The notes beneath the pieces are model-generated. The model saw nothing but the letters and a program-made list of their open reading frames with translations, searched no databases and was not told where the DNA came from. DNA of 6,061 nt from Methylococcaceae bacterium (GTDB taxonomy: Bacteria; Pseudomonadota; Gammaproteobacteria; Methylococcales; Methylomonadaceae): positions 1-6,061 of the forward strand of contig CANNLO010000297.1 in the NCBI GenBank assembly GCA_947505055.1. The letters run 5' to 3'. Numbering within the stretch: position 1 is the stretch's first letter; every line of letters starts with the position of its first letter. A program made the position numbers and the translations under genes. Below are positions 1 through 5,999 of the stretch, one piece after another.

Positions 1-42
1 ATAGTATTCGATGATTTAAAAATTAATGCGCTGGTAATCAGC

Positions 43-483
43 TTAACGTTGGCGCCCCACATGGGACTTCTCAATCACATTGCAAAAGCCAATCACGGAC
101 ATTGTGCAAGTCGACTCCAAGCCCAAATTACGGCTCAGGGTGCGGTTTATCACATGCAAGGGCGTGATTACCTGCCAATTTTGCCTATCCGCCCTGTACG
201 CCAATACCGGCGTTAATCCATTGGGTTCGGCTTGACGTCTCGCCTGTGTCCACCAAGTTTTGATTAAGCCTGGTGTAACTCGGCTATAACGCTTGCACTC
301 AATCGCCAGGGTTTTAAATGAATCCGCAACCTGTCCCACCTCGTCATCATGTACGATCAAATCAAAACCGCCTGACCGGGATTGCTCTAGGTTACGGATT
401 AACCGGACTCCAGACCACTCGTAGACAAGTTTACAAAACTCTCGCTCTGAACTTGCGCCTTTGGCTCTTGAATTTATTGTCAT
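43..483 (-). CDS. PD-(D/E)XK nuclease, Holliday-junction-resolvase-like
   Basis: This 146-residue protein looks like the small resolvase-type nucleases of phages and islands. The visible core is a conserved Glu in the first helix (E13, in SSERE), then GFD (D41) and IECK (E62, K64). D41, E62 and K64 form the D...ExK metal-binding and catalytic triad. A Gln in WWTQA (Q80) sits where this fold often has a helix-borne Gln. Such enzymes cut branched DNA or act as nickases; the true substrate cannot be read from the sequence. It starts 12 bp after the SSB-like gene's stop with only a weak ribosome site (CGAG), so it is probably translated from the same message. Its role could be resolving replication or recombination intermediates of the element. 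A restriction-like or nuclease-effector role is less likely given the replication neighbours. The fold call is fairly safe; the resolvase role is inference. Confidence 0.78.
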   Translation of the reverse strand: MTINSRAKGASSEREFCKLVYEWSGVRLIRNLEQSRSGGFDLIVHDDEVGQVADSFKTLAIECKRYSRVTPGLIKTWWTQARRQAEPNGLTPVLAYRADRQNWQVITPLHVINRTLSRNLGLESTCTMSVIGFCNVIEKSHVGRQR

Positions 484-495
484 TACAAAACTCGG

Positions 496-882
496 TTAAA
501 AATTCAAGTCGTCATTAAATGGGTGTGAACCATCATCATTGACAGTATGTCCAGGCACATCTGGTTTCGGTTTGCGCCGCTTTTGAATATCGTAAGGTGA
601 TAACGAATTGTTCACCGTGATATTAAAGCCATGCCTGGTTTCTCCAGTTGCTTTATCTGACCAACTTGACGGTTTTAGACTACCGATAACCGACACGGGA
701 TCACCTTTCGTTAGTCGTGAAATCTTTTCGGATGCGTCACCGAAGGCGATCCCGCTAACGACAATTGGCTGATCTTCGCCTATGCCCACTGATAGTAAAA
801 AGTTTGTGAACGGCTTACCGCTTGCCCCTATACGTGAGATAGGGTTTTGAATTAATTTACCACTACATATTGCATCTAACAT
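496..882 (-). CDS. ssb: Single-stranded-DNA-binding protein (OB-fold, SSB-like)
   Basis: The 128-residue product has the pattern of a short SSB. Residues 1-95 fit an OB fold, with alternating hydrophobic strands, a KGDPVSVIGSL segment (about 59-69) and a strand ending FNITVNN. A proline- and lysine-rich linker (KRRKPKPDVP) follows. The acidic tip ends NDDLNF, resembling the DDDIPF tail by which SSBs recruit replication and repair proteins. It is shorter than chromosomal SSB (about 170-180 residues) because the linker is short, as in phage and plasmid SSBs. It would coat single strands exposed during replication of the element. The ATG at 882 is chosen because GGAG lies 7 nt upstream; the in-frame ATG at 924 has no ribosome site. 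The gene follows the candidate origin and precedes the nuclease gene, so the two probably form a small operon. Confidence 0.82.
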   Translation of the reverse strand: MLDAICSGKLIQNPISRIGASGKPFTNFLLSVGIGEDQPIVVSGIAFGDASEKISRLTKGDPVSVIGSLKPSSWSDKATGETRHGFNITVNNSLSPYDIQKRRKPKPDVPGHTVNDDGSHPFNDDLNF

Positions 883-888
883 TTGAAT

Positions 889-898
889 TCTCCGGAGA
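889..898 (-). promoter_or_regulatory. Ribosome binding site of the SSB-like gene, inside a perfect palindrome
   Basis: On the minus strand GGAGA precedes the ATG at 882 by 7 nt and decides the start of the SSB-like gene. It lies inside the perfect 10-bp palindrome TCTCCGGAGA, so the ribosome site could pair with itself, or a dimeric repressor could bind here. The ribosome-site role is clear; any regulatory role is speculative. Confidence 0.7.
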
Positions 899-1008
899 TA
901 GTTATTAACCCTTCTATTAGCCATTGGCGTCTGTTTGTTTTTTATATGAATGATTCTAAGAAAATAATCGAAAAACTAATACGCACACTGGGAAACAGAA
1001 AAACAGAA

Positions 1009-1062
1009 AAACTAACCATACTAACAAAATTAAAAAAACTAGATAAACTAGCCAAACTAAGC
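1009..1062 (+). repeat. Six tandem 9-bp iterons, consensus AAACTARNN
   Basis: Units start every 9 bp at 1009, 1018, 1027, 1036, 1045 and 1054: AAACTAACC, ATACTAACA, AAATTAAAA, AAACTAGAT, AAACTAGCC, AAACTAAGC. The first six bases are near-constant (two units have one mismatch) while the last three vary, as expected for a bound motif rather than simple slippage. A further AAACTAA lies at 973-979, outside the phase, and one inverted AAACTAG at 1158-1164. Likely binding sites for an element-encoded initiator; the helicase's C-terminal region is one candidate. Confidence 0.72.
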
Positions 1063-1085
1063 GTTATACAAGGGTTCTAACGCTT
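1059..1085. repeat. Perfect hairpin abutting the iterons
   Basis: AAGCGTTA (1059-1066) and TAACGCTT (1078-1085) are exact inverted repeats with an 11-nt loop. The left arm overlaps the last iteron. No T-run follows on either strand, so it is not a terminator. Single-strand initiation hairpins for plasmid primases have this general form (for example ssi sites of RSF1010), so it may be a priming site for the AEP primase; that role is inference. Confidence 0.6.
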
Positions 1086-1213
1086 CCAAATCATTCAGAA
1101 ATATTCTAGAGACACCACAAACAATGGATAAATAGACTACTAATAACTTCTGTTTTCCTAGTTTCTCTAAATTTCTGTTTTTCTGTGTGCGCACTGTTTT
1201 TCGATTTTTTTGA

Positions 1214-2857
1214 TTAAAAATCACCGTCCTTATATCTTCGGTACTCATCTTCAGTCGCCTGCTTGGTTGTTATCAATGCATAAATTTTCGCATTTTTTTC
1301 GCCAACATTAACCCGCCATTTTTTTCCACAATAATCATTAAGAACTGAGGTTATTCTTGGTTTACTTCTTCCCGTGTCATCGTGAATAGCTTTGATTAAT
1401 TCTGTCTTATTTATGATTCCAGCTTTTATGGTTTCGATGATAGCTTCAATAATGACTTTGTCGCGCGTCTCATTTATCGATGCTTTGAGTGCTGCTTTTG
1501 CCTGTGCGCTGCTAGCTTCCGATTCAACCTGCACCGAGGCTAGTATCTCTTGATAAGTTAGCCCGTCTTCCACCGAGTAACTGAAGGCTAACTCGCGTGC
1601 AACTACGCCTCTGTTTTTAATGTTTACAAATAAAACTTGTTTTTTTGTATTGGTCTTAGCGATTTCATCGAGCATAAATACACAATCAGAGTCATCAACG
1701 ACATCAGAAGTCCCACTGAAGACCACTTTCCCATCTGAATCTCTGTTTTTATTCGTGTGAGCTAAACTAATCAAGGTACCTCCGTTAAGGACATACTCCC
1801 GCGCTCTATTCATGAATTCACTACCGCGCCTTTTATCCATAAGGTCAGTAAATTTCTTCAACGTGTCTAGTATGATGACGATGCCGCTGGCTGTTCCATC
1901 ATCAATCAGTTGGCGCATATAACCTTGAAGTGCCTCTGCTTCGAAGCCATTGTGACCAGGCGATAACATGTGAAATCCAGTCGTCTCAGCTAAACTAATT
2001 TTATTTACTAAGCCTTTATAATCATCATCAGCATTAATATAAAAAATATTGTCACCACTTATTCTATTGGCTTTGACGGATTCTATTAACAGCCAAAGCA
2101 CTAACAAGGTTTTTCCGGTGTTTGGCTTGGCGTAAATTACTGTCGCCTGACCTAATATGGCAATTCGATTTAATACATAGATATCTGCTAACATTTTTGC
2201 CCTCATAGCTTGAGATTGTCCGCTGAGCGAGAAGTCTCTCATCGAGAAAGGTTTCTTTGGGTTTTCTGGATCACCTTTAATTATTGTTTCGCTTTCTCCG
2301 TAATCAGGCATTGTTGAGTAATCAACATTATGAACATCCCTGAATGTATCCCTAGCCTGCACCTGTTGTGCTTGTTGCCTCATATACTCTCGTTGTACAA
2401 ATGTGTTATAAGACATCCCTTCAACTTCTAACAAATTATCACCTGCATCCTTTAGAGCTGAGTTAATATCGCTGCCGTGAACTAGCGTGCAAAATGTACT
2501 GAAAGCGTCATGCGCGCCTTTACCGGCTGTAAATAAAGGATCTGCAGAACTAAAAGAATGCACTCGCAACTCGCCGACGTCATCTAACCTTACATTAGCT
2601 GAATAGTTTCCAGTTTGACTGTTGGGATGCCTAAAAGCATCGCCGCGTTGGTCGTATCCGGCTTGTATCATCCAGTCATGCGGCGAGTATTTTGCGTTAA
2701 AAGCGTCGATTAATTTAAGTGAATCGGATGACTTAATAGTTACTTTTCGCTTTGTGGCTGCGGTCCTTGCTGCCTCGAGTGCTAAAAATTGCGATTTTAA
2801 TTCCTTACGCTTTATAGCAATTTCACTTGCCCATATTTGCAAAGGGTTAAGATTCAT
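1214..2857 (-). CDS. Replicative DNA helicase, RecA/RepA-like ATPase, with primase-partner N-terminal region
   Basis: A 547-residue ATPase. Residues about 45-140 resemble the segment joining primase and helicase in phage primase-helicase fusions: IQAGYDQRGDAFRHPNS, a strand pair ending LRVHSFSSADPLF, then HDAFSTF...HGSD. Residues about 215-440 are a RecA-type motor with Walker A AKPNTGKT (K249, T250; Ala replaces the usual first Gly), a hydrophobic Walker B strand GIVIILD (D331) and a LISLAHTNK motif (H367), as in RepA- and KaiC-like ATPases. Residues about 460-530 look like a winged helix that could bind DNA. It would unwind the element's DNA ahead of the host polymerase. The ATG at 2857 is chosen because it overlaps the primase stop (ATGA) and follows a G-rich ribosome site (GGGGTGG); the longer frame to 2920 merely overlaps primase coding. 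The gene ends beside the candidate origin. Helicase class is inferred from motifs. Confidence 0.82.
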   Translation of the reverse strand: MNLNPLQIWASEIAIKRKELKSQFLALEAARTAATKRKVTIKSSDSLKLIDAFNAKYSPHDWMIQAGYDQRGDAFRHPNSQTGNYSANVRLDDVGELRVHSFSSADPLFTAGKGAHDAFSTFCTLVHGSDINSALKDAGDNLLEVEGMSYNTFVQREYMRQQAQQVQARDTFRDVHNVDYSTMPDYGESETIIKGDPENPKKPFSMRDFSLSGQSQAMRAKMLADIYVLNRIAILGQATVIYAKPNTGKTLLVLWLLIESVKANRISGDNIFYINADDDYKGLVNKISLAETTGFHMLSPGHNGFEAEALQGYMRQLIDDGTASGIVIILDTLKKFTDLMDKRRGSEFMNRAREYVLNGGTLISLAHTNKNRDSDGKVVFSGTSDVVDDSDCVFMLDEIAKTNTKKQVLFVNIKNRGVVARELAFSYSVEDGLTYQEILASVQVESEASSAQAKAALKASINETRDKVIIEAIIETIKAGIINKTELIKAIHDDTGRSKPRITSVLNDYCGKKWRVNVGEKNAKIYALITTKQATEDEYRRYKDGDF

Positions 2858-3408
2858 ACCACCACCCCATTGCGCTTTGAAAGGTGGTAATAAAACGCGC
2901 CCCGATTGGGTAGGTAACACAATTGAGCCGCCCGTTCGGTTGCACGATCCGTTTTGATACCTAATGCTTCGAGTTTGTCATTTAGAATTTCTTGGGCGAG
3001 CATCCAGTTTATTCCGCTTAATGGCTTTTCTAGCGGGATTAACAGCCTTGCCTTTTGATTTTCAACCGTCGCACTACGGCTGTTGTACAACTCAAAATCA
3101 GCATCATCAATAATTTCTACCAGTTTTTCAGCCAAATCTGGCAAAGTCGGTGGATTGTCATCCAAGTCGGCCCAAAGCATCCAGAACTCCCCTAATTCTT
3201 CTTGAGTTTTGAAGCATCGACTTAATAGCGTTGATGGAATTATCCACTGCGCACGGGTTTTCTCAACTTGCTGCGGGTTGTTAGCTAGGTGACATATATC
3301 ACTCCAGCCAATTGTTAAATACGGCGTTAATTTTTTATTAGGCTTATTGATGTCAAGTTCGTTGCTGTGAAACTGCCCGAAACCGGAAGTCATTAAAACG
3401 TCAATCAT
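2854..3408 (-). CDS. DNA primase, archaeo-eukaryotic primase (AEP/prim-pol) domain
   Basis: The 184-residue protein is essentially one AEP catalytic domain. Motif I is WADLDD (D81, D83), the metal-binding acidic pair. Motif II is YNSRSATVENQKARLLIPL (about 108-126), matching the S-R-S-A-T...R...iPL pattern of phage prim-pols. The third metal ligand is probably D154 in GIKTD, followed by the AQLCYLPNR block of the family. It would make primers on the element's single-stranded template. The start is well supported: GGAGG lies 7 nt before the ATG. Related phage and satellite proteins usually carry primase and helicase in one chain; here the primase stops just after CYLPNR and the helicase begins in the overlapping frame. 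Transcription probably starts at the operator-like promoter near 3462. It could act as a primer-polymerase instead of a plain primase; the sequence does not separate the two. Confidence 0.8.
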   Translation of the reverse strand: MIDVLMTSGFGQFHSNELDINKPNKKLTPYLTIGWSDICHLANNPQQVEKTRAQWIIPSTLLSRCFKTQEELGEFWMLWADLDDNPPTLPDLAEKLVEIIDDADFELYNSRSATVENQKARLLIPLEKPLSGINWMLAQEILNDKLEALGIKTDRATERAAQLCYLPNRGAFYYHLSKRNGVVV

Positions 3409-3461
3409 GGCGATCCCTCCAAACCAATAAACAGCTTGGTCTAGTTGTGTTTTCTTAGATT

Positions 3462-3490
3462 TTTATAAACAATTCGTTCGCCTTGGGTAA
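3462..3490 (-). promoter_or_regulatory. Candidate promoter of the primase-helicase operon
   Basis: On the minus strand TATAAA (3462-3467) matches the -10 consensus at 5 of 6 positions. TTACCC (3485-3490), 17 bp upstream, is a weak -35 (3 of 6) lying inside one arm of a 12-bp inverted repeat. Predicted transcripts would start near 3455, giving a leader of about 45 nt before the primase ATG. The weak -35 suggests activation or repression at the overlapping repeats. Confidence 0.5.
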
Positions 3491-3541
3491 CTGCCCAAAG
3501 GAGTCGTTAAGTTATCCTATGTGTAGTTACCCAAGGTTACT
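3481..3541. repeat. Operator-like 12-bp inverted repeat with nested dyads
   Basis: CCTTGGGTAACT (3481-3492) and AGTTACCCAAGG (3525-3536) are exact inverted repeats separated by 32 bp. Each arm belongs to its own imperfect dyad: CCTTGGG...GCCCAAAGG (3481-3501) and AGTTACC-CAA-GGTTACT (3525-3541, one mismatch). A third related box, AGTTATCC, lies at 3510-3517. No T-run follows on either strand, so this is not a factor-independent terminator. The placement upstream of the primase gene and over its candidate -35 fits a regulator binding as paired dimers, possibly with looping. The binder is unknown; the 80-residue HTH protein encoded just upstream is an obvious candidate. Confidence 0.62.
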
Positions 3542-3555
3542 TTGGCAATCTTTCT

Positions 3556-3798
3556 TTATTCTCTTGGCGATCGGACCCATTTAAAGAACTTTGGATTGTT
3601 GATTATTATCTTCCTACCTATCCGCACGATTGCCCCAGATTTTGCAAGGCCATTCGAATGTTCGTTGAAAATCCAAGATCGTAATCCGCCCATCGTAAAT
3701 ACGGGGTATTTTTGGATAAATTGTTTTACAGTCGAATAATCAGAATCGTAGGGGTTTGAATCCATTTCATCTGCTTCGGCTTCGGCTTGTATGTTCAT
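3556..3798 (-). CDS. Small AlpA/excisionase-like DNA-binding protein
   Basis: An 80-residue protein with an acidic N-terminus (AEAEADEMD, from a 6-bp tandem in the DNA) and a compact C-terminal domain. The block TVKQFIQKYPVFTMGGLRSWIF...GAIVRIGRKIIINNPKFFKWV (about 23-75) has the layout of winged-helix excisionase and AlpA-type regulators: a helix-turn-helix, a strand R-I-G-R-K-I-I-I, then a final helix with paired Phe and a Trp. Such proteins bend DNA at att sites to direct excision, activate or repress int, or turn on island genes. The ATG at 3798 follows GAGG with 5-nt spacing. It sits between two repeat clusters (3878-3932 upstream, 3481-3541 downstream), either of which could be its binding site. 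Family membership is by pattern only; a plain transcription regulator role is equally possible. Confidence 0.66.
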   Translation of the reverse strand: MNIQAEAEADEMDSNPYDSDYSTVKQFIQKYPVFTMGGLRSWIFNEHSNGLAKSGAIVRIGRKIIINNPKFFKWVRSPRE

Positions 3799-3877
3799 AT
3801 CTGCCTCAAACTTAAATTTAACTAAGAATCACGGCTGTGTGTTATGGCGGCTTAAGGCAAGTAGATCAGATTAGGGT

Positions 3878-3932
3878 GTGGGTGTTCGAAGTGGGTGTTC
3901 GTAGGTGTTCGTGGGTGTTATTTATAACACCC
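3878..3932 (+). repeat. Direct-repeat array GTGGGTGTTC ending in a hairpin
   Basis: GTGGGTGTTC at 3878 and 3891, GTAGGTGTTC at 3901 and GTGGGTGTTA at 3911; the last three start exactly 10 bp apart, one helical turn. The final copy is also the left arm of an 8-bp perfect hairpin, GGGTGTTA (3913-3920) with TAACACCC (3925-3932). The hairpin begins 11 bp beyond the stop of the 224-residue gene, but on that strand it is followed by ACGAAC rather than a T-run; a TGTTTT run follows only on the plus strand. It is therefore more like a protein-binding array upstream of the AlpA/Xis-like gene than an ordinary terminator, though it may slow transcription. Confidence 0.65.
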
Positions 3933-3943
3933 TGTTTTAATGA

Positions 3944-4618
3944 TTAATTATTTCCTCTGTGCGCGTAACTTTCATGGTTTTCCATTCGCCATAGCTTATT
4001 AATTCCAATTTTCCATGCTGCATCAAAAGCCGTTATAGCTTTAAATAAATCATCTTTATATTCAAATTCACAAATTGACTTTATAGTTCCTTTTTCACCG
4101 TCCGGTATTGCCATGGGTTTAAATCCCTTGGCTTTAATTACTCCCAAAATGGCCACTTGCTGTTTATCCCGCTTAGTTAAAGGTTTTTTCTTTGGTTCTA
4201 TCTTTGCATGATCACCCATGCCAGCACCTTCGGCCACCAACTCTTTAACTATCCATAAATCAATTAGCTCCTGCCAAAAACCTTCTGGAAACCATTTTTT
4301 ATCAGCATCCACGAACTTCTTAAATTTCGTATTGTGAATTTTGATTGTCGATGGAATTAATTTTTTGTATGTTTGGGGTTCTATATGATATCCAGGTGGT
4401 GGATATTTAGGCATGCTATTGGGTATTATTTCATCTACCCAACAAGCAAAATTCCCTTCATATTCCAATTCGCCAGCACGACAAATATCAAACAGGGTTT
4501 TCTCTAGTTTATCTCGCTGGGTCGTTCTGGCTTTAGCAACTGGATATTTTATATTTACTATTTGAGTAATGGTTAAAAAATCTGGAAGTTTTATTTCGTC
4601 ACTAAATATTGGCGTCAT
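3944..4618 (-). CDS. Protein of unknown function, translationally coupled to the integrase
   Basis: I do not recognise this 224-residue soluble protein. It has no signal peptide or membrane segment. Residues 14-60 (DFLTITQIVNIKYPV...DICRAGELEYEG) look like a small helical DNA-binding or adaptor domain of the kind that opens with a helix-turn-helix and ends in a two-strand wing. The middle (about 65-130) is aromatic- and proline-rich. The lysine-rich C-terminal third (KKKPLTKRDKQQVAILG, then IPDGEKGTIKSICE, then AFDAAWKIG...LWRMENHESYA) resembles a tail I associate with hypothetical proteins of integrated elements. The integrase stop and this ATG overlap as TGATG, with a G-rich ribosome site inside the integrase end, so the two should be made together. 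An alternative GTG lies one codon upstream (4621). A role in integration, excision or regulation is suggested by context only. Confidence 0.7.
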   Translation of the reverse strand: MTPIFSDEIKLPDFLTITQIVNIKYPVAKARTTQRDKLEKTLFDICRAGELEYEGNFACWVDEIIPNSMPKYPPPGYHIEPQTYKKLIPSTIKIHNTKFKKFVDADKKWFPEGFWQELIDLWIVKELVAEGAGMGDHAKIEPKKKPLTKRDKQQVAILGVIKAKGFKPMAIPDGEKGTIKSICEFEYKDDLFKAITAFDAAWKIGINKLWRMENHESYAHRGNN

Positions 4619-5673
4619 CACATACCCCCGAAAATTTTCTCATTCATAGAAGCCACCACATTTGATACATGGCCGTCTGATAAATGGGCGTATCTTTTCA
4701 CCATCGAAAGTGTTTTATGCCCAAGCACTTCGGCTATTTCAGCCAGACTAGCTCCGTTCATGGCTAAATAAGAAGCGGTGCAATGTCTTAGGTCGTGCCA
4801 TTTAAAATCGGTTATTTCAGCGGCTTCCATTGCGTTTAAAAATGCTTTTCGTAAATCAATGGGCTTTTGTGGATTTCTCGAACTTGGGAATAATAGCTTG
4901 GTATCTAATCGCCTAACCTTGTTATGTTCTTTTAATAACTCTAGGCTTGCCCCTGCCAATGTTACGCGCCTTCTCTCTCCGTTCTTGGTTTCATGTAGGA
5001 TTAAAAAACCATCTTTTAAATTTACATCCGACCATACCAGTTCCATTTGTTCGGCTTGTCGCATACCTGTGGATAGTGCCAATACTACGCAAGGATAGAG
5101 TAGGGGGTTTGGTGATTCTTTACAGGCTTGCAATAATCTTGCTCTATCGTCATCATCCAAGAACCGAACACGGCCACGCGGTAATTCGGGGCTTGAGACC
5201 TTCTTGGCTGGGTTATCAGTTAACCAGCCCCATTTGTTGATTGCAATGGTGAAAGCATGCTGTAGGTTCTTAAGATACTTGCTTACAGTGGCCGCGCTTT
5301 GAGTCATGCCACCAAGGTGTTCGTCTATTATTTGCTGTGTGATATCTGATAACAGGTAATGCCCAATCTTACTAGACCACCAATCAAGTTTGCTTTTACG
5401 CTCGGTTTGTTCCTTGGGGCTGTATGTTTTGTCTTTATTTTTTGGTAGGTATTCAGTGCAATACCTATCTAACATTTCCTTAACTGTGTGTTTTTTTGCT
5501 TCGACTGTTTTAAACCAACGACCCTCACGAATTGCGCTCTCGGTATCTTGTACCCATTTTTTTGCATCAGTAATGCGCTTAAAGGTTGCAGTATCTTTTT
5601 CTTTTAAGAGTCTAACTTGTGCTGTGTAATAGGACTTTCCGTTCGCGTCTAGTCTTTTAGTGATAGTAGCCAT
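4618..5673 (-). CDS. int: Tyrosine recombinase (site-specific integrase)
   Basis: A 351-residue integrase of usual phage/island length. The N-terminal part has an arm-binding-like segment (about 1-55, ANGKSYYTAQVRL) and a SAM-like core-binding domain (about 62-160, ending WGWLTDNPAKKV). The catalytic domain shows the full set: R205 in STGMR, K230 in the beta hairpin ETKNGE, H293 and R296 in HDLRH, H319 in LGHK and the nucleophile Y328 in KRYAHLS. It should catalyse recombination between attP and the tRNA-Lys site at the right edge. The ATG at 5673 follows AGGA with 6-nt spacing. Its coding end overlaps the next gene by TGATG. The probable promoter lies about 130 bp upstream beside an 11-bp tandem repeat, allowing autoregulation. 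No residue is missing, so it is likely active. Confidence 0.95.
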   Translation of the reverse strand: MATITKRLDANGKSYYTAQVRLLKEKDTATFKRITDAKKWVQDTESAIREGRWFKTVEAKKHTVKEMLDRYCTEYLPKNKDKTYSPKEQTERKSKLDWWSSKIGHYLLSDITQQIIDEHLGGMTQSAATVSKYLKNLQHAFTIAINKWGWLTDNPAKKVSSPELPRGRVRFLDDDDRARLLQACKESPNPLLYPCVVLALSTGMRQAEQMELVWSDVNLKDGFLILHETKNGERRRVTLAGASLELLKEHNKVRRLDTKLLFPSSRNPQKPIDLRKAFLNAMEAAEITDFKWHDLRHCTASYLAMNGASLAEIAEVLGHKTLSMVKRYAHLSDGHVSNVVASMNEKIFGGM

Positions 5674-5754
5674 AATTGTTCCTGTAGGGTAACAATCGGC
5701 TTTCTGATATGATGCATTTAGCCATTGCTTAACCCAGAATTAAGTTAGTGGTAA

Positions 5755-5787
5755 GGCTTTGTTGGTGCTGATTACACCCTCAAGGCC
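5755..5787 (-). promoter_or_regulatory. Imperfect hairpin in the int leader
   Basis: In the predicted int leader the minus strand can fold GGCCTTGAGGGTG against CACCAACAAAGCC around the loop TAATCAG, with 10 of 13 positions paired. No T-run follows. It may be a binding site or a leader structure affecting int expression; chance cannot be excluded. Confidence 0.3.
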
Positions 5788-5806
5788 GCTTTATTTCTAG
5801 GTTTAT

Positions 5807-5812
5807 ATTATA
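5807..5812 (-). promoter_or_regulatory. Candidate -10 element of the int promoter
   Basis: A perfect TATAAT on the minus strand lies about 134 bp upstream of the int ATG. No good -35 exists at 17 bp; the best is TTGCAA (5832-5837, 4 of 6) at a long 19-bp spacing. The -35 region falls within the 11-bp tandem repeat, so a protein on the repeat would affect this promoter. Confidence 0.5.
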
Positions 5813-5814
5813 CT

Positions 5815-5836
5815 CTCACGTTGCACTCACGTTGCA
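5815..5836 (+). repeat. Perfect tandem 11-bp repeat CTCACGTTGCA
   Basis: Two identical adjacent copies (5815-5825 and 5826-5836), about one helical turn apart, lie 115 bp from the tRNA fragment and upstream of int. Paired direct repeats at this place are typical of integrase arm-type sites or of operators for int. No third copy was seen in the window. The binder is unknown. Confidence 0.65.
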
Positions 5837-5950
5837 AATGAATATAAAAGAGGGTAATAAATGGCAAAAATTGACAACAATACAAATCATTTAACTAATT
5901 GATTTAATTATTATTGTTTGTTGTGGCGTGTTGGTATTTTTTGACTTAAA

Positions 5951-5999
5951 CGCACTTTTAATGCGATGGTCGCGCGTTCGAATCGCGCACGACCAACCA
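5951..5999 (+). other. Attachment site: 3' part of tRNA-Lys(UUU)
   Basis: The sequence folds as the 3' portion of a tRNA. It has anticodon stem CGCA/TGCG (5951-5954, 5962-5965) and anticodon loop CTTTTAA with anticodon TTT at 5957-5959. The variable loop TGGTC (5967-5971) is followed by a T stem GCGCG/CGCGC around TTCGAAT (5972-5988), the acceptor strand ACGACCA, discriminator A and encoded CCA (5997-5999). The outermost anticodon-stem pair is lost (A5950 against A5966) and no D arm or 5' acceptor strand precedes it, so this is not a working tRNA. The break at the anticodon stem marks the left limit of the shared att core. The 3' part kept next to its own terminator is what is left at the distal junction after insertion into a tRNA gene. 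Confidence 0.85.

Follow-up and report, generated by a model that had tools for sequence, protein, structure and literature searches.

In Gram-positive PICIs, as described in part of PMC6092414, the origin is the region immediately 3' of the initiator gene, and the plan consists of rep followed by an ori in which two iteron sets flank an AT-rich region; in the PICI assay given there, a rep-ori plasmid replicated whereas a rep-deleted one did not. Gram-negative PICIs feature an integrase with a specific attachment site and the gene order int-alpA-pri-rep-ori. Most PICIs are not known to contain phage structural or lysis genes.

In P4, the crr region lies directly 3' of the alpha gene and bears annotated type 1 repeats in both orientations, some of them 9 bp apart (4314/4323), and a separate origin is annotated at 9086-9809 as well. 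P4 alpha combines a primase and an SF3-type helicase in one protein, and its C-terminus (671-770), with the solved structure 1ka8, is presumably a winged-helix origin-binding domain. Iteron plasmids and RSF1010 have tandem initiator sites and a RecA-type helicase with a separate primase, together with longer iterons and a separate initiator protein. The PICMI satellites of Vibrionaceae, according to the part of PMC10803314 drawn on here, are 6,110 bp long and integrate downstream of fis; besides int, alpA and a primase they have a gene that shares 4 nt with int. This int-overlapping gene, iolg, is required for excision of a PICMI, and the whole word iteron is absent from the main text of that source.

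The DNA analysed here, hereafter the window, is a stretch of 6,061 nucleotides from a Methylococcaceae bacterium that comprises most of an integrated element read on the minus strand, with int, a primase-like gene, a helicase gene, a gap proposed as ori and an SSB gene following one another in one direction (Table 1). G001, the nearest genome among those searched, carries the same stretch at 99% over positions 1-5999. This similarity and a 49-bp copy of the tRNA-Lys(TTT) 3' end stop together, and positions 5951-5999 were therefore taken as an attachment-site copy; the far attachment site, or other boundary of the element, was not found. The window shares with PICIs the one-directional order from int to rep, and agrees with Gram-negative PICIs in direction, in int, primase, helicase and ori, and in possessing an integrase (PF00589) with a specific attachment site, which is seen on one side. 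The 80-aa protein did not match AlpA. Neither the genes of the window nor those that come next in the near-identical locus L034 include a recognised phage structural or lysis gene, one phrog holin match (E 0.089) not being counted; the far boundary of the element was not found. The element is graded as PICI-like and not as proven, because an AlpA match is lacking, the far end was not found and no helper is known.

Table 1. Features of the window, with positions counted from its first nucleotide.
Feature	Position	Strand	Remarks
PDDEXK nuclease / resolvase-like protein	43..483	-	PF24608 3e-17, phrog_244
Single-strand DNA-binding protein (SSB)	496..924	-	PF00436 2.4e-06
Proposed replication origin, whole SSB-helicase gap	925..1213	.	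289 nt, 69% AT against 59% for the window
Left iteron arm	971..1062	+	copies starting 973, 993, 1001, 1009, 1018, 1027, 1036, 1045, 1054
Six strictly phased 9-bp units	1009..1062	+	lag-9 identity 0.73
Dyad AAGCGTTA(11 nt)TAACGCTT, inner edge of left arm	1059..1085	.	8-bp; pairs in predicted fold
Centre between arms, candidate melting region	1063..1146	.	84 bp, 68% AT; putative role after the PICI description
Right iteron arm	1147..1211	-	mirror-image copies 1150, 1159, 1175, 1194 (spanning 1150-1199)
Helicase/initiator candidate	1214..2857	-	RecA-type, weak AAA_25 match; ATG at 2857 (read directly)
Predicted winged helix, helicase C-terminal	about 1217-1525	-	structure model
Primase-like partner	2854..3408	-	phrog_3228 5.5e-05
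Small 80-aa protein upstream of replication genes	3556..3798	-	no family match; position where PICIs have alpA
225-aa protein, function not assigned by family searches	3944..4621	-	overlaps int by 4 nt
Tyrosine integrase	4618..5673	-	PF00589 1e-31
Attachment-site copy, 3' end of tRNA-Lys(TTT), 49 bp	5951..5999	+	similarity to G001 copy ends at 5999

The alpha/crr replicon plan of P4 is not followed in the window, where the primase-like and RecA-type helicase genes are separate and the primase-like stop overlaps the helicase ATG by 4 nt (ATGA, 2854-2857); in L040, L048 and L049 the primase-like part is fused to a helicase. The element differs from PICMIs in its location at tRNA-Lys; the 225-aa gene starts inside the int stop (4618-4621) in a manner reminiscent of iolg. 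Direct repeats of GGTGTTCGTA (x2.6, 3894-3919, upstream of the 80-aa gene) and of CTCACGTTGCA (x2, 5815-5836, near the attachment site) are possibly regulator and integrase arm sites, respectively. Upstream of int, positions 5718-5788 (minus strand) gave a sub-threshold Rfam match to R1162 antisense RNA (30.3 bits, cut-off 55). Further on, a DUF5681 gene of the element, not taken as a terminase, follows in L034, and past it restriction-modification-like genes, which may be cargo or chromosomal, were observed in G001 (L034 1-5300 and L111; one HsdR-type match, the neighbours judged by eye). A second integrase region of G001 (C60:3614-4900, L002) has 65% identity and perhaps belongs to another such element.

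The interval between the SSB gene, which starts at 924, and the helicase stop, which ends at 1214, contains no other likely genes, in agreement with the gene-free gap claimed in an earlier reading of the sequence alone (the sequence-only reading). That reading had further described six 9-bp units sharing AAACTA. Their period and phase were confirmed in the units AAACTAACC, ATACTAACA, AAATTAAAA, AAACTAGAT, AAACTAGCC and AAACTAAGC at 1009-1062, but AAACTA is exact in only four of the six, the other two having one change each (ATACTA, AAATTA), and the array is longer than claimed. The lag-9 identity of the six units is 0.73 over 54 bp. When 925-1213 was dinucleotide-shuffled 500 times, no 54-bp stretch exceeded 0.60 at this lag, and a maximum of 0.67 was seen at any lag from 4 to 15 in 200 shuffles of the gap. 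The same strand bears further copies 5' of 1009, namely AAACTA at 973, which is in phase, and the AAACAG variant at both 993 and 1001, and reverse-oriented copies (CTGTTT/TAGTTT) are located at 1150, 1159, 1175 and 1194. The phased array is the inner part of one arm of a mirrored, opposed two-arm set. CGCACAC stands between the outer and inner copies on each arm, at 982-988 and, on the minus strand, at 1185-1191 (both read directly), and the 300 nt after the helicase stop contain 135 inverted 8-mer pairs against a shuffle mean of 40.5, with 0/100 shuffles as high. None of the 33 control tiles of the window matched the gap in either 8/9-bp periodicity or inverted repetition. GC skew, a measure that is uninformative here, exhibited no inflection at 925-1213, and the dyad at 1059-1085 is not strictly kept, as one arm base differs in the G001 copy.

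This layout corresponds to that of the PICI origins of SaPIbov1, SaPI1, EfCIV583 and EcCICFT073 as given in part of PMC6092414, since the gap likewise lies 3' of a rep-type gene and comprises two iteron arms around an AT-rich centre; it begins at the stop of the helicase, which is the putative initiator. As both the gene order and the two-armed plan of the window are those of PICI and E. coli loci, the region was filed as a PICI-type origin. Positions 925-1213 most likely serve as the origin from which a small integrated element on the Gram-negative PICI plan replicates, a reading well supported by sequence comparison, namely by the layout of PICI origins, by the gene order and by a phase that is kept in most relatives while the sequence drifts. 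The iteron gap had already been put forward as a candidate origin by the sequence-only reading, which was upheld on this point and had missed the two-armed layout and the described type.

The E. coli loci comprise CFT073 (L102), which from its place we take to be EcCICFT073, and eight loci picked among the 50 matches listed. All nine feature a rep gene, then 200-444 nt with repeats and then SSB, which directly follows the gap in L107, comes after one small ORF in the eight others and is annotated as frameshifted in L103. Reverse-oriented repeat copies in these gaps, counted without a shuffle test, range from one (L104) to nine. The rep genes that were typed belong to D5/DUF5906 (L102, L106, L109 and L110), RepA-like AAA_25 (L103 and L104) and DUF927 (L107).

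Regions directly 3' of helicases related to that of the window were compared as a set of 40, consisting of the ORFs that remained from 42 distinct helicase ORFs after removal of four truncated pieces and one without downstream DNA, together with the window, L048 and L049, the last two bearing other helicase types; the window and L034, as well as L035 and L036, are near-identical pairs and each pair is counted twice. Periodicity reached significance (at most 1/100 shuffles) in 22 of the 40, the lag being 9 in 18 of them and 8 in the other four, and inverted repetition did so in 24. When 37 of them (the set without L034, L048 and L049) were compared with 2400 half-overlapping tiles from the same loci, 22/37 lay above the 95th percentile of the tiles for 8/9-bp periodicity, 24/37 for inversion and 19/37 for both, against 0.33% of the control tiles for both. 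Neighbour spacings of up to 12 bp, collected from these 40 regions and the nine E. coli ones by a method to which spacings under 7 are invisible, were 9 bp in 121 cases, 8 bp in 36 and 10 bp in 22 (n=211, 49 regions). The repeat words themselves are unrelated, approximately GGGAAACTA in L098, GGTTTGCTA in L100, GTTATTCGT in L058 and GGAATAAGT in L057, and each of the three elements in the genome G138 has a word of its own, close to GAACAGTTT, AAACTTACC and GTTTTTACC, respectively. The drift of sequence at constant phase that the sequence-only reading had proposed to look for is therefore found in most relatives, as differing words at a period of 9 (or 8) bp directly 3' of the helicase.

Relatives keeping the genes without iterons, which had been named as evidence against an origin, were encountered in part. 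Neither signal was detected beside the helicase, even at 5/100 shuffles, in 10 of the 40 regions (L016, L062, L064, L065, L067, L069, L070, L078, L079 and L099), two of which have clear arrays 3.2-3.5 kb on. Both are viral contigs, L078 with a strong 9-bp inverted array 3.2 kb downstream of the helicase (tile from 10208) and L079 with one at 3.5 kb (tile from 10440); L062 has a weaker 9-bp inverted array about 4 kb downstream, and the seven others gave no distant array by the same score in the DNA examined. The period is kept in L035/L036 with no excess of inverted 8-mer pairs, and L061 has the period only at 2/100 shuffles and no inversion. Two loci combine familiar parts with other ones: L049 (1121-3682) has the same primase-like N-terminus joined to a DUF5906 helicase, yet inverted CCTATGACA-type repeats lie directly 3', and L046 (7113-10483) resembles a module swap, in which the primase-like and N-terminal helicase part (57%) and the SSB (60%) correspond to those of the window and enclose a different large ORF, with GTGTAGG copies plus a core-like sequence in its gap.

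The same comparison bears on a coding explanation, by which the repeats would encode a Lys/Leu-rich short peptide from a plus-strand ORF at 946 to 1080, AAA CTA giving Lys-Leu each three codons. A 44-codon in-frame ORF is present there (within a 65-aa ORF) and 9 bp equal three codons, but any 9-mer array keeps a stop-free frame open, and the ORF is on the strand opposite both neighbouring genes. The repeats of relatives are unrelated in sequence, stand in either orientation and are spaced by 8 as well as 9 bp, which makes coding unlikely; the frame conservation that the earlier reading had listed as counter-evidence did not appear among these words and steps, and as no frame is kept by relatives the peptide explanation was rejected as exceedingly improbable.

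The repeats might instead be operator sites through which a repressor or activator controls the SSB operon, without any origin, as they sit just upstream of the SSB gene. The single promoter-like match is on the plus strand (chance mean 1.8), and the ORF that comes next varies among relatives, in which the repeats remain attached to the 3' end of the helicase gene. Opposed arms around an AT-rich centre are, moreover, the described origin plan of PICIs (part of PMC6092414), and an operator function in place of an origin is considered very improbable.

Mirrored arms could also form a hairpin in the helicase-SSB transcript or a DNA cruciform that acts as terminator, attenuator or packaging signal, the repeats merely making up the arms. 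The minus-strand transcript is predicted to fold at -75.1 kcal/mol with the arms in register (z -5.1, 0/200 shuffles as stable), and z was below -2 in 32 of 36 regions folded with 40 shuffles each. Stable folding is not specific, however, as L069, which has no iterons nearby, folds at z -3.6, and a hairpin does not need tandem phasing within an arm. No terminator-like site was found in 850-1300. In L036 the 9-bp period is kept (0/100 shuffles) and the fold is no better than that of shuffles (z +1.5), and less clearly the same is true of L061 (period 2/100, z -0.3) and L075 (period 3/100, z -0.7); a period without an unusual fold favours protein sites over structure, and the hairpin explanation is regarded as improbable.

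If the arms of the proposed origin are protein sites, the adjacent helicase is the candidate for their recognition. Its structure model has a mean pLDDT of 88, and the C-terminal part, arranged as helix-helix-helix-strand-strand, is predicted to fold as a winged helix. Among 29 helicase sequences this part has a mean identity of 24%, versus 44% for the RecA part, and the variable C-terminal winged helix is likely the reader of the iterons. Iterons and C-terminus covary (Mantel p 0.002 in 22 loci chosen as having iterons), but iteron similarity followed helicase divergence no more strongly for the C-terminus (rho 0.37) than for the RecA part (rho 0.40), so that the covariation does not single out the reader domain and was not used as proof. 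Foldseek with the C-terminal model gave no match at E <= 0.001, the C-terminal profile reached a best E of 0.32 in a PDB sequence search, an absence that says little, and the same profile did not match the C-terminus of P4 alpha, a helicase of another type than that of the window.

By tblastn at E 1e-5, neither the 50,697 phage records nor the 72,556 plasmid records contained a match to the helicase itself, which also sets it apart from the helicases of iteron plasmids and RSF1010, and the helicase-SSB region had no match in phages by blastn. BLASTP against one E. coli RepA-type helicase of a PICI-like locus revealed no real similarity (best E 0.21). The helicase profile A2 had matches in 17 of the 237 family genomes, 6 of 101 in the order sample and 3 of 369 in the class sample, and a wider profile, A3, matched 2 of 398 genomes of the phylum sample, with G001 included in each of these counts; A2 further yielded 22 IMG/VR loci. 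A relative of the window helicase is carried by Methylovulum psychrotolerans.

On the origin reading, the following order of events is proposed. The element would excise from the chromosome before the origin fires, presumably upon phage induction, and copies of the adjacent RecA-type helicase would bind the 9-bp repeats via their C-terminal winged helices. As the arms face each other, two helicase assemblies would be placed in opposite orientation around the AT-rich centre, which they may melt before loading on opposite strands. The coupled primase-like protein would prime the loaded helicases, the SSB of the element would stabilise them, and replication would depart both ways from the gap.

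The kind of origin is a known one, and the window is set apart as a variant by its hosts, by its helicase and by iterons that are free to change at a fixed period: compared with PICIs, Methylovulum psychrotolerans is among the hosts, the words of the repeats are unrelated and the helicase is without a phage or plasmid match. The PICI-type origin would be extended both to satellite-like elements in relatives of methane-oxidising bacteria and to a helicase without a match in the phage and plasmid collections searched. The related loci constitute a natural series of origins, with a recognised sequence that changes under a maintained period and geometry, on which two questions can be tested directly: in what way short phased repeats are read by an initiator-helicase, and what separates the origins of satellites that reside together, such as the three elements of G138.

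A subset of these origins, to which the window does not belong, contains a core near CTACAGGCCGCGYCATTGCT between the arms. A core near TACAGGCCGCGYCATTRC was observed beside or between inverted iterons of unrelated sequence in L038 (10629-10648), L053 (10267-10286) and L102 (44183-44202), and further in L126, L130 and L135. The initiators that accompany it are of at least two types (divergent AAA_25 and D5/DUF5906). A matrix derived from five host-family words scored 20.7 in L102, 16.0 in L105 and 13.8 in L050 (reverse strand), values reached by 2, 8 and 12 of 2266 tiles away from the origins then known, and the top two of those tiles (L052 and L046) adjoin repeats 3' of large ORFs. The seven other E. 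coli loci scored at chance, the matrix scores likewise indicate no core in L035/L036, the RepA-like L103/L104 and many others, and P4 crr contains no match within two mismatches. The window itself scored -6.7, below 99% of control tiles, and the core is therefore not claimed for it. Three spellings of the core were not found in the literature searched. It is possible, though less likely than not, that these loci follow one modular satellite-origin design, in which the 9-bp iterons change freely and together with the initiator while spacing, mirror layout and, in a subset, an ~18-bp core near TRYARGCCRCGYCATTRC persist across at least two helicase types (AAA_25 and D5/DUF5906); a priming or melting step common to these origins, and perhaps supplied by the host, might then take place at the core, and the window would be a member whose core has degenerated or been lost.

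In the class sample, TRNARGCCGCGCCATTRC was found in 0 of 369 genomes and its reversed control gave 7 matches (counted from the table), so that the core is not a general feature of the class. Within the 237 family genomes, the pattern TRYARGCCRCGYCATTRC in any context gave 12 matches versus 2 for the reversed control, four of the 12 being known origins and eight new. Four of the eight new matches (L120, L126, L130 and L131) exceed the inverted-repeat threshold; among those below it, L121 and L125 have iterons by eye and L123 and L124 do not. In IMG/VR, TACAGGCCGCGYCATTRC is exact in six contigs, five of them over the inverted-repeat threshold. Two of the contigs over threshold, L136 (coding-like) and L137 (longer repeat), were judged by eye as other than origin type; L133, L134 and L135 are of origin type by eye, and so is L138, though below threshold. 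The E. coli form of the core is present in 103 contigs; of 80 examined, 78 have flanks, and 42 of these 78 lie over the threshold, but they represent no more than 10 distinct contexts and mostly share one iteron family.
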